Source: Alphaproteobacteria bacterium (GTDB lineage Bacteria > Pseudomonadota > Alphaproteobacteria > Reyranellales > Reyranellaceae). From it: DNA of 64,000 bases. Below, piece by piece: positions 22,333 through 55,130 of the stretch. Position 1 is the first letter of the stretch, and every line of letters begins with the position of its first letter. The notes under the pieces were generated by a model. It worked only from the letters and a program-made list of their open reading frames with translations. It was not told the origin of the DNA and ran no database searches. The DNA lies in contig JAFKFK010000008.1 of NCBI GenBank assembly GCA_017307275.1, positions 186,001-250,000 of the forward strand. Reading direction: 5' to 3'. Position numbers and translations under genes: made by a program.

Positions 22333-22350
22333 CTTTGCCGAAACGGAAGA

Positions 22351-22446
22351 GGCCGACCGCTTGGGGAACGGCCGGCCTCCGCAGTGGCCCGTGACTGGTG
22401 TGGGAGGTTTGAAGCGAAGCCTTGGGGTGTTGGGAGTCTTCGCTTC
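22351..22446 (-). ncRNA. Structured element copy A (putative small RNA with C-rich loops)
   Basis: Shares about 95 bases of layout and partial identity with copy B at 23361-23460; both contain GGCC(G/A)..CCGCTTGGGGAACG.CCGGCC and GAAGCCTTGGGGTGT on the plus strand. Read on the minus strand it folds as a GCGAAG/CTTCGC hairpin with a loop containing CTCCCAACACCCCAAG, a C-rich linker with CCTCCCACACC, and a final GGCCGGCCG..CGGTCGGCC hairpin. Such C-rich loops resemble alphaproteobacterial anti-Shine-Dalgarno small RNAs (alpha-r14/cuckoo type). Strand and function are inference. It lies just downstream of the TetR gene. Confidence 0.4.
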
Positions 22447-22468
22447 GGTGGCTGACTAGGCCACCGCC
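22447..22468. terminator. Hairpin at the TetR gene 3' end
   Basis: GGTGGC with GCCACC encloses a short loop and spans the TetR stop codon (22456-22458). No long T-run follows on either strand, so it may act as a weak or bidirectional terminator or RNA stabiliser. Confidence 0.35.
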
Positions 22469-23106
22469 ACGGGCTGTTGAGGAACGGTAAGGGCCTGCAG
22501 GACGATCGCCTGCGCGGTGAAACGCCAGGTCCGCGACGCATGGACCGGCGACAGGCGAAGCTGCTCGCGCATGTTCATCCAGCTATCGAGACCGAAGGCC
22601 AGATCGAGCGAGTCGAGCACAAGATCGTGCGCCCCTGCATCGAGATTGCTGAGTTCGGCCTCGAACCACCCGGCGAGCCGCTCCCGCAGAAGCCGGCGAA
22701 GCTGCACGACTCCCGAGCCGACCGCCGGCGCCACGCTGCGCACGCGCTCGGCGAAGTGCCATACCGGCAACCACTCCTCGAAGAGCTGAGCGCGGTCGGC
22801 AACCAGCAGCTCGATGCGGCTGGACAGCGGCGCCGCGGCGTCGATCGGGCGATTGCCGTCGAATGCGCGGCTGACCGCGAGATCGAAAGCGGCCGCGTAA
22901 AGATCGGCCAGGCTCGTGAAATGCTGAAAGAGTGCGCGGCTCGAAACGCCGGCGATGGTCGCGATGGCGGCCGACGTCGGCTCGACATCACCAGCCTGGA
23001 TGAGATCCAGAGTGGCCTGAATCAGCGATTGGCGGGTCCGCAGGCCGCGAACGATGCGACCATCCTGCGAGCGCGATACGTCGACTGGGAATCCGATAAT
23101 TTTCAT
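22456..23106 (-). CDS. TetR-family transcriptional regulator
   Basis: A 216-residue regulator. Residues about 23-70 hold the TetR helix-turn-helix (TRQSLIQATLDLIQAGDVEPTSAAIATIAGVSSRALFQHFTSLADLYAAAF). The remaining helical domain binds an unknown ligand. Its C-terminal layout (SWMNMREQLRLSPVHASRTWRFTAQAIVLQ) resembles the second TetR protein of the window at 58514. The gene is isolated and flanked by the two copies of a structured repeat, with an 830-bp gene-free region upstream that includes a TGCA-N4-TGCATATCT box 69 bp before its start. Confidence 0.9.
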   Translation of the reverse strand: MKIIGFPVDVSRSQDGRIVRGLRTRQSLIQATLDLIQAGDVEPTSAAIATIAGVSSRALFQHFTSLADLYAAAFDLAVSRAFDGNRPIDAAAPLSSRIELLVADRAQLFEEWLPVWHFAERVRSVAPAVGSGVVQLRRLLRERLAGWFEAELSNLDAGAHDLVLDSLDLAFGLDSWMNMREQLRLSPVHASRTWRFTAQAIVLQALTVPQQPVAVA

Positions 23107-23174
23107 AGGGAAACCAATAGAATAAAAATGGCTTTAATGTCCAAACGATAACAGGTCGCCGCGAGACTGTAATC

Positions 23175-23191
23175 TGCAAAAATGCATATCT
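23175..23191 (+). promoter_or_regulatory. 17-bp box, copy 1 (TGCAAAAATGCATATCT)
   Basis: One of three near-identical sites with consensus TGCA(A/G)AA(A/T)TGCATATCT. This one lies 69 bp upstream of the TetR gene start. The TGCA-N4-TGCA core suggests a dimeric DNA-binding protein. Confidence 0.5.
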
Positions 23192-23360
23192 CGCCAGAGT
23201 TGACGCCTGATTTTGCTGCATTTTTTTTCTGAGATAGGCGTTTTTGGGGGATCTGACATTGCAGCAGACACGCAGAATGCTAATTTCCAGCTGCAGTGAT
23301 TCCAGCTTTTCGTCGAATTTTCGTAAGGTCGGGGGCTAGGTCTGCAGGGCAGCCACAAAT

Positions 23361-23460
23361 ACGAAAGGCCGGCCGCTTGGGGAACGACCGGCCTTCCTTA
23401 GAAACCCGCCTGGGTGTGGGGTTGTCGAAGCCTTGGGGTGTGTGGGAAGGGGGCTTCAAC
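23361..23460 (-). ncRNA. Structured element copy B (putative small RNA with C-rich loops)
   Basis: Related copy of the element at 22351-22446. On the minus strand it gives a GAAGCC/GGCTTC hairpin with a loop containing CCCACACACCCCAA, a linker with CCCCACACCC, and a terminal hairpin AAGGCCGG..CCGGCCTT followed by TTCGTATTT, which could terminate transcription. The C-rich loops are conserved while flanking bases differ, suggesting selection on structure and loop. Independent expression is not shown. Confidence 0.42.
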
Positions 23461-23627
23461 GAGCGGCTTGGGAGGCCGCCGGCGGGTATGAGAATTTCGG
23501 GTGGTACGGCGCGCCGTAGAGAGCGCAGCCAGTTCTAGGTCGAAAATCCTTCCAGATATGAATTACAGCGACGGTTCGACGTCCCTTATGCCTGCAACCT
23601 AACAAATGACGACCCGCCTCCGTTAGT

Positions 23628-23644
23628 TGCAAAATTGCATATCT
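23628..23644 (+). promoter_or_regulatory. 17-bp box, copy 2 (TGCAAAATTGCATATCT)
   Basis: Second copy of the TGCA-N4-TGCATATCT site, 296 bp upstream of the first SEL1 gene, within an AT-rich stretch. It differs from copy 1 at one position. Confidence 0.5.
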
Positions 23645-29881: not shown

Positions 29882-30349
29882 CTAGTCCTTGTTGCGGCCC
29901 TTTCGGCCCCCAAGAACCTCGGCATGGCTGGCGGCCCCGATTGCCTTGACCATCTCGAAGATGCGCTTGCGCACGCGGCTTTCGCGAATCTTGTAGTAGG
30001 CGCGCACCAGTTCCAGCGTCTCGCGTTTGATCAGCGGATCCTTCTCCTGCTCGAAGGGCGTCGCCGCTTCGCCAAAGCCGCTCTTACGGCCACGGCCCGA
30101 CATCGGCCGGCCCGCCAAGGCATTGGACGGCATTTCGTCGAAGAAATAGGAAACCGGAACGTCCAGCACCTTCGCGAATTCAAAGAGCCGGCTTGAGCCA
30201 ATGCGGTTGGAGCCGCGTTCATACTTCTGAATCTGCTGGAAGGTGAGACCAACCGCCGTCCCGAGCTTCTCCTGGCTCATGCCGAGGAGAGTGCGTCGCT
30301 GGCGCATACGCGCTCCGACGTGGACATCTACGGGATGCGATCTCGCCAT
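29882..30349 (-). CDS. XRE-family helix-turn-helix regulator (PraR-like)
   Basis: A 155-residue regulator with a lambda-repressor-type helix-turn-helix at about residues 14-68 (VGARMRQRRTLLGMSQEKLGTAVGLTFQQIQKYERGSNRI) and a C-terminal tail with a helical KRETLELVRAYYKIRESRVRKRIFEMVKAI segment. In rhizobia a similar regulator (PraR) sits between lnt and metK, the same place as here. ATG 30349 is chosen over 30379 because the upstream residues are not part of the fold. A 17-bp TGCA-N4-TGCATATCT box lies about 100 bp upstream, a candidate autoregulatory operator. Confidence 0.88.
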   Translation of the reverse strand: MARSHPVDVHVGARMRQRRTLLGMSQEKLGTAVGLTFQQIQKYERGSNRIGSSRLFEFAKVLDVPVSYFFDEMPSNALAGRPMSGRGRKSGFGEAATPFEQEKDPLIKRETLELVRAYYKIRESRVRKRIFEMVKAIGAASHAEVLGGRKGRNKD

Positions 30350-30446: not shown

Positions 30447-30463
30447 TGCAGAAATGCATATCT
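30447..30463 (+). promoter_or_regulatory. 17-bp box, copy 3 (TGCAGAAATGCATATCT)
   Basis: Third copy of the TGCA-N4-TGCATATCT site, about 100 bp upstream of the XRE regulator start in the promoter region between that gene and lnt. A partial site (GCATATCAC) follows at 30477. Its position suggests that the XRE protein may bind all three sites. Confidence 0.5.
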
Positions 30464-54921: not shown

Positions 54922-54955
54922 AAAAAGCCCCCGACCGGAAGGGCGGGGGCTTTTT
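54922..54955 (-). terminator. Intrinsic terminator in the metX leader
   Basis: On the minus strand AAAAAGCCCCCG pairs with CGGGGGCTTTTT around a short loop, a strong hairpin with a T-run 41 bp before the metX start and 9 bp after the riboswitch. It probably acts as an attenuator; by symmetry it can also work on the plus strand. Confidence 0.85.
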
Positions 54956-54963
54956 CGAGCACT

Positions 54964-55018
54964 CCGACCTTTTAGCGGTGTTTAACGTGGCCGCAAGCCG
55001 GTCGGCTCAAATTCCACG
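54964..55018 (-). promoter_or_regulatory. SAM-II riboswitch upstream of metX
   Basis: The minus strand shows the full SAM-II signature: P1 CGTGG with CCACG, the AATTTG loop, CCGACC pairing with GGTCGG, and TTGCGG pairing with CCGCTAA, with the conserved TTAAA and GCTAAA segments. It closely matches the published Agrobacterium metA element. SAM binding is expected to stabilise the pseudoknot and lower metX-metW expression. Confidence 0.92.
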
Positions 55019-55130
55019 ATAGAAGCCTATACGTAGCTTGACCGTTTCGCGCAAGCGCCTTGCATTTGTTTGACTTTACGCCGGCAGGCCGAACGTAGTA
55101 TCGCCGCTGCGCACAGGAACAACCGGCAGT

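Follow-up and report, generated by a model that had tools for sequence, protein, structure and literature searches.

Twin C-rich RNAs flanking a TetR-family gene in Reyranella and a candidate operator shared with an XRE-family regulator

The window analysed in this work, a stretch of DNA of 64,000 nucleotides, contains on its minus strand two homologous RNAs of approximately 133 nt each, which are located on either side of a gene encoding a TetR-family regulator (Table 1). These RNAs, designated copy A and copy B, are probably twin trans-acting small RNAs (sRNAs) whose C-rich loops would pair with a limited set of mRNAs and which would be under the control of an XRE-family regulator of the PraR/CdxA type.

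Table 1. Features of the sRNA locus and of the XRE gene region (positions in the window)
Feature	Position	Strand	Basis and remarks
Copy A, 3'-UTR-type homologue over the TetR 3' end	~22342..22474	minus	folding z -6.83; copy-B-only model R1, 61 bits
Copy A, P1	22474-22466/22395-22387	minus	
Copy A, P2	22465-22460/22452-22447	minus	
Copy A, P3	22446-22438/22419-22411	minus	
Copy A, terminator	22380-22367/22361-22348	minus	
TetR-family regulator, 216 aa	22456..23106	minus	Pfam TetR_N PF00440, 25.1 bits (cutoff 24)
Box AGATATGCATTTTTGCA upstream of TetR	23175..23191	minus	candidate operator; pattern search of own genome
Copy B, putative free-standing sRNA	23355..23487	minus	folding z -6.01; model R1, 162.7 bits; covariation
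Copy B, P1	23487-23481/23410-23404	minus	
Copy B, P2	23480-23475/23467-23462	minus	
Copy B, P3	23460-23452/23432-23424	minus	
Copy B, C-rich 19-nt P3 loop CCCUUCCCACACACCCCAA	23433..23451	minus	conservation 0.95 in B; A-vs-B identity 0.75
Copy B, terminator hairpin, then U-rich tail	23397-23383/23377-23363	minus	terminator scan
Copy B, terminator loop CCCCA	23378..23382	minus	A-vs-B identity 0.97; terminator scan
Conserved leader segment with CATATCTGGAAGG element, resembling an inverted half of the box	23534..23580	minus	alignment; between box and P1
Box AGATATGCAATTTTGCA upstream of copy B	23628..23644	minus	candidate operator; pattern search of own genome
XRE (HTH_3) regulator between lnt and metK	29882..30349	minus	HTH_3, 49 bits; lnt and metK neighbours; conserved start; candidate reader of the box
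Box AGATATGCATTTCTGCA, 1 mismatch, upstream of the XRE gene	30447..30463	minus	third and last own-genome site at <=2 mismatches

Copy B is located approximately 250 nt upstream of the TetR start, between that start and the next, divergent gene. Both copies share one fold, in which the outer stem P1 encloses the hairpins P2 and P3; a short unpaired segment then leads to an intrinsic terminator hairpin whose loop is CCCCA. The initial annotation, made from the sequence of this region, had recognised two related elements flanking the TetR gene, but had given their length as about 95 bases, overlooking the outer stem P1 and the hairpin P2; copy B also runs to 23487, beyond the end assigned to the region, and copy A overlaps the TetR stop codon. 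The terminator-like hairpin that had been described at the end of copy B is present at 23397-23363 and precedes a T-rich tail. The CCCCAAG loops reported for the minus strand were likewise recovered, this motif occurring in 74 of the 79 copies collected.

The predicted minus-strand structures are considerably more stable than those of shuffled sequences, with z = -6.83 for copy A (22342-22480) and z = -6.01 for copy B (23355-23490), and none of 200 shuffles was equally stable. For the plus strand of the same regions, z values were -1.98 (A) and -0.33 (B), which disfavours a plus-strand RNA and suggests that the minus strand would be the transcribed one. A promoter scan of the region found no sigma-70-like promoter.

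The homology of the two copies was assessed using a covariance model (R1) built from 30 copy-B sequences, with copy A left out. A covariance search over related genomes, with a model of both copies, had been proposed in the initial annotation as a check; the search made here recovered copy A blind as well as the RNA across the genus. Copy A of the window was found at 61 bits (E 1.3e-10), and copies A of other loci scored 52-96 bits, with one more at 26 bits. In the copy-B alignment (30 rows), 97.1% of the cells were paired and 6 pairs were altered on both sides, each value being reached in 0 of 500 shuffles; the number of further pair types did not exceed that of the shuffles (308/500). An alignment of 59 rows, comprising A, B and other-locus copies, showed 98.0% pairing and alterations on both sides in 22 of 37 pairs (0/500 shuffles for all five measures), these values being biased towards the structure because the alignment was fitted to the model. 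As for the earlier statement that the stems differ while the loops are conserved, the comparison of A with B agrees with it for the stems P1 and P3 (identity 0.41 and 0.57) and for the loops of P3 and of the terminator (0.75 and 0.97), but not for the P2 loop (0.34), the P2 stem (0.71) or the terminator stem (0.87).

The TetR-family protein has no match to a specific NCBIfam family above its cutoff. In copy A, the TetR codons CCC GTG GCG GTG GCC make up the 5' arms of P1 and P2, and the stop codon of the gene lies inside the P2 loop. In the 31 genomes with copy A together with the window, the summed synonymous entropy of the last five TetR codons was 0.40, compared to at least 2.88 in the 84 other scorable five-codon windows, and the fourfold sites of these codons differed from those elsewhere in the gene with p = 1.4e-4. 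The synonymous sites in the last five TetR codons of copy-A genomes are, thus, nearly frozen. In R. massiliensis 521, GTG is replaced with GCG at the fourth of these codons, and GCCACC with GCCGCC in the opposite P2 arm; judging from base pairing, these are compensating changes across the stop codon. In two loci, a palindromic insert of ~33 nt was observed just past the TetR stop, inside the P2 loop of copy A, with the rest of the copy intact (L019, 413-591, minus strand; L205, 2632-2808, plus strand). Small RNAs that are located in 3'-UTRs and share the terminator of the mRNA are known from enterobacteria. Copy A resembles them in using the terminator of an mRNA and in its possible release by processing, and it differs in that its 5' stem arm is made up of codons whose synonymous sites are frozen and that a free-standing sibling is present upstream.

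Only two copies of the RNA were found in the own genome (5.3 Mb, 92% complete), the next match of R1 having 16.5 bits. Genome-wide dispersal as an ordinary repeat, which the initial annotation had named as the finding that would speak against a functional RNA, was therefore not observed, and the dispersed-repeat reading is ruled out by this copy number. Named relatives, among them Reyranella massiliensis 521, R. soli NBRC 108950 and Enhydrobacter aerosaccus ATCC 27094, identify the genus as Reyranella in the GTDB sense. Within it, the RNA was detected in 58 of 65 genomes at E <= 0.001. Among the 76 genomes of the order, 61 gave a match at E <= 0.05, namely 60 of the 65 members of the genus (two of them weakly, 26-31 bits) and one genome of a sister genus (G452), which contains two copies of 105-106 bits; no match at this threshold was found in the remaining 10 genomes of the order outside the genus. 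In a set of 385 genomes of the class, four matching members of the genus scored above 145 bits and the matches in other genera did not exceed 37.7 bits. The weak class-wide matches of model R2 outside the genus (33/385 genomes, <=37.7 bits) were taken as chance, and the eight of them that were run through Rfam matched no sRNA family. The initial proposal of a functional structured RNA is, accordingly, backed by covariation, by conservation across the genus and by the lack of dispersal.

The arrangement of the locus is conserved as well. Of 49 named loci, 48 have copy B upstream of TetR, and in a set of 30 loci a TetR relative adjoins copy B in 29; the single exception in each set is cut by a contig end. 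Copy A was found in 31 of the 49 named loci (E <= 1e-5), and the 18 loci without it include two that are cut within TetR (L225, L226) and one that reads N there (L215). In several lineages copy A is absent or decayed and is therefore dispensable. At least three loci (L203, L212 and L213) contain what seems, as judged by eye, to be a decayed copy A without a terminator. The genomes without copy A have different TetR C-termini, often with a plain hairpin. On the TetR tree, whose rooting and long branches are unsure, the presence of copy A requires 5 changes, of which well-supported branches force at least 3, and copy A has therefore been gained or lost more than once. The comparison of loci indicates that copy A comes and goes and copy B stays.

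Orphan copies located away from TetR were identified in six genomes of the genus (L071-L076, no TetR match at E <= 0.01) and in the sister-genus genome G452 (L113). Five of these seven are preceded by the dyad box described below. The orphan copy of L076 (2682-3012) follows a tRNA gene at a distance of ~130 nt and lacks an upstream box.

These data bear on the possibility that both copies are mere elaborate terminators or cis-acting leader structures without a function in trans. Strong intrinsic terminators do end both copies, and copy A is placed where the terminator of TetR is expected. This explanation is nevertheless improbable, since according to the ORF list no long minus-strand ORF ends at copy B, which moreover keeps its own upstream box; P1-P3 covary, the conservation of the C-rich loops exceeds the needs of a terminator, and the orphan copies occur without TetR.

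A search of the window with Rfam at the gathering score detected only a tRNA and a SAM_alpha riboswitch, and no family was assigned to the two copies. The riboswitch is located at 54952-55027 on the minus strand (52.2 bits). The closest Rfam family is ar14 (RF02344), whose whole model aligned to copy B with 21.1 bits at a gathering score of 58.8 (E 0.23). The ar14/cuckoo RNAs are defined by the motif CCUCCUCCC in hairpin loops (PMC10746234, PMC3927594). This group, which includes NfeR1 of Sinorhizobium, SmelA075 and SmelA099 (RF02344), is characterised by multiple hairpins, conserved C-rich loops, diverged stems and several copies per genome, features in which the RNAs described here are similar (PMC10746234, PMC3927594). 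Both copies do have several hairpins whose loops are C-rich and whose stems have diverged, the P2 loop not being common to A and B. Unlike the ar14/cuckoo RNAs, the copies lack CCUCCUCCC, are closed by the outer stem P1 and provide no support for general masking of Shine-Dalgarno sequences.

The RNAs could alternatively be members of the ar14/cuckoo group (NfeR1, CcsR), that is, general anti-Shine-Dalgarno sRNAs, as the same kind of architecture, with several C-rich loops and a terminator and with alignment to the whole ar14 model, might imply. Such membership is very unlikely: the anti-Shine-Dalgarno motif CCUCCUCCC was found in none of the 79 copies, the score of copy B is far below the gathering score, and ar14 was above its cutoff in 0 of 61 genomes. 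The likeness to alphaproteobacterial sRNAs with C-rich loops that had been noted in the initial annotation, together with a proposed comparison with alpha-r14 and cuckoo families, therefore holds for the architecture but not for family membership, RF02344 being the nearest family and remaining under the cutoff. The associated idea of Shine-Dalgarno masking as a general mechanism found no support, the loops fitting 345 predicted ribosome-binding regions no more often than shuffled loops of the same composition. Matches of at least 6 bases were obtained for 2-6% of these regions with the loops and for 13% with the cuckoo motif (345 predicted genes, 464 kb), in a weak test in which such matches are inflated, since gene starts were assigned by a home-made rule based partly on the Shine-Dalgarno score. 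The start region of the XRE gene was also considered as an sRNA target; it contains GGGGA in the window, but no conserved complement was found in 17 genomes. Since the loops performed no better than shuffled ones and the XRE start is not conserved in this respect, no target is supported.

The missing target signal, in both the ribosome-binding regions and the XRE start, would suit another explanation, according to which the C-rich RNAs act not by pairing with mRNAs but as a sponge or decoy that captures a protein (or another RNA) with affinity for repeated loops of the CCCCAAG type. CCCAAG occurs at least twice in 58 of the 79 copies and the motif is also present in the highly conserved terminator loop. 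We regard a sponge as unlikely, because the locus suggests no binding protein and the conservation of the long P3 loop in copy B goes beyond what a repeated short motif would need.

CcsR1-4 of Rhodobacter sphaeroides (ccaF1-CcsR) are sibling sRNAs produced from a single locus that also contains a protein-coding gene (PMC10253847), and the present copies are similar in this respect. Unlike CcsR1-4, they are tied to TetR and a dyad box, and one copy overlaps a coding sequence. A DUF1127 gene, a trait of the CcsR/CIN1 locus, was absent from the neighbours scanned with Pfam, a set that covers some of the small ORFs. In a genome of another alphaproteobacterial family, two neighbouring ar14-like matches of 56.9 and 52.9 bits, just below the cutoff, were observed (G059:C1:245431-245802, L100); they perhaps form a CcsR-like array. 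Searches of the literature for Reyranella small RNAs, cuckoo RNAs, CCUCCUCCC and PraR combined with sRNA revealed no description of the RNA reported here.

A 17-base dyad box, AGATATGCANTTTTGCA, resembling an operator, is located upstream of both copy B and TetR. With up to 2 mismatches allowed, it occurs at three sites in the whole own genome of 5.3 Mb, and the reversed pattern at none. The third site precedes the listed start of the XRE gene by 67 nt and its conserved ATG by 97 nt; the listed ORF extends to 30379 and begins with GTG, the conserved ATG at 30349 being 30 nt downstream, and all distances given for listed starts use the GTG. Each of the 65 genomes of the genus contains at least one box, mostly about three, and the reversed control gave 0 sites in 60 genomes and 1 site in 5. 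At <=3 mismatches, the box precedes copy B in 47 of 47 loci (within 250 nt) and TetR in 48 of 48, TetR rather than the box having served to select these loci. The control stretches past TetR that were long enough, their count not being given, contained no box at <=3 mismatches.

The distance from the box to the P1 stem of copy B is bimodal (~51-54 or 111-150 nt), and the transcription start of copy B is therefore uncertain. In addition, an imperfect inverted repeat of the type GGCAGCGCT...AGCGCGCC is conserved between the box and P1 upstream of copy B (~23500-23560 in the window); genomes with the box ~51 nt from P1 have other sequence in its place.

The distance from the box to the TetR start is near-constant (62-69 nt), and autoregulation of TetR-family genes is common. 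The box might, consequently, be bound by TetR itself, which would then control both its own gene and copy B, or by some third factor, the reading of the RNAs as sRNAs remaining unchanged. This is a somewhat unlikely alternative to the XRE regulator, given several genomes in which the RNA was not detected. Four of them (G009, G082, G085 and G088) contain a box 66-76 nt before the listed XRE start; in G009, G082 and G088 the TetR relative with the highest identity reaches no more than 38%, and in G085 a relative of 84% identity is located at a contig end, so that the RNA of this genome may merely be unassembled. Since the box is kept before the XRE gene in RNA-less genomes, XRE is favoured over TetR as its reader. 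In two other RNA-less genomes (G020, G078) the box sites are not beside XRE, and in G017 no site was found with the second pattern. TetR or a third factor would be in line with the XRE orthologues of other families, where a box (<=4 mismatches) was found in 1 of 29 cases, 0.32 being expected; the link between XRE and the box is thus drawn from this genus. One locus of another family of the order (L147, G037) contains a single box-like site and no XRE match.

The XRE gene encodes an HTH_3 protein and lies beside lnt and metK, the position of PraR/PhrR/CdxA. At the XRE loci of other families, lnt was adjacent in 28 of 29 cases and metK in 25 of 29, and the cdxA neighbourhood is conserved across the class (PMC10688885). 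PMC4149787 lists the praR promoter among the PraR-bound Rhizobium promoters from which MEME yielded a TTGCAA core. Speaking against XRE as the reader, this core is present at the copy-B site only among the three sites of the window. In other families, it precedes 3 of 29 XRE genes, where 1.65 would be expected. A SELEX consensus, CAAC-N5-GTTG, has also been reported (PMC5527310). Unlike the PraR/PhrR/CdxA systems, the candidate operator described here has only three genomic sites, one of them at an sRNA, and CAAC-N5-GTTG was not matched to the box. The box regulon, consisting of copy B, the TetR-copy A transcript and XRE itself, most likely belongs to an XRE regulator of the PraR/CdxA type, which also appears to control itself.

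Taken as probable, the sRNA reading would imply the following mechanism. Copy B would be a free-standing sRNA with its own promoter and its own intrinsic terminator. Copy A would be a further copy superimposed on the end of TetR; it would terminate the TetR mRNA and could possibly be released from it by processing as a 3'-UTR sRNA. The conserved unpaired C-rich stretches, namely the P3 loop, the single-stranded part that precedes the closing P1 arm and the terminator loop, are the likely contact sites; they most likely base-pair with a limited number of mRNAs at G-rich segments, in the manner of other multi-loop sRNAs of Alphaproteobacteria. Through the dyad operator, copy B and the transcript of TetR and copy A would belong to a single regulon of three promoters, and the XRE regulator beside metK would read the box, including that at its own promoter.

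A bolder version is tentative, and we hold it to be possible rather than probable: a closed three-promoter circuit in which an XRE regulator of the PraR line would control itself, TetR and the sRNA, the latter occurring twice, once free-standing and once half inside the TetR reading frame. The C-terminus of TetR would then be shaped by the RNA, and both promoters would feed sibling sRNAs to the same new set of targets, distinct from anti-Shine-Dalgarno targets.

The RNAs represent a real sRNA family of a known general kind, apparently undescribed, in Reyranella and one sister genus; its coding overlap is unusual and its candidate regulon is compact. The results provide a well-supported sRNA family for a genus in which no small-RNA literature was found, and a clear example in which an RNA stem constrains the C-terminal codons of a regulator. 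They also outline a small circuit, in which three operator-like sites in the whole genome may tie a regulator in the position of PraR to an sRNA, and suggest that alphaproteobacterial C-rich multi-loop sRNAs need not carry the cuckoo motif.
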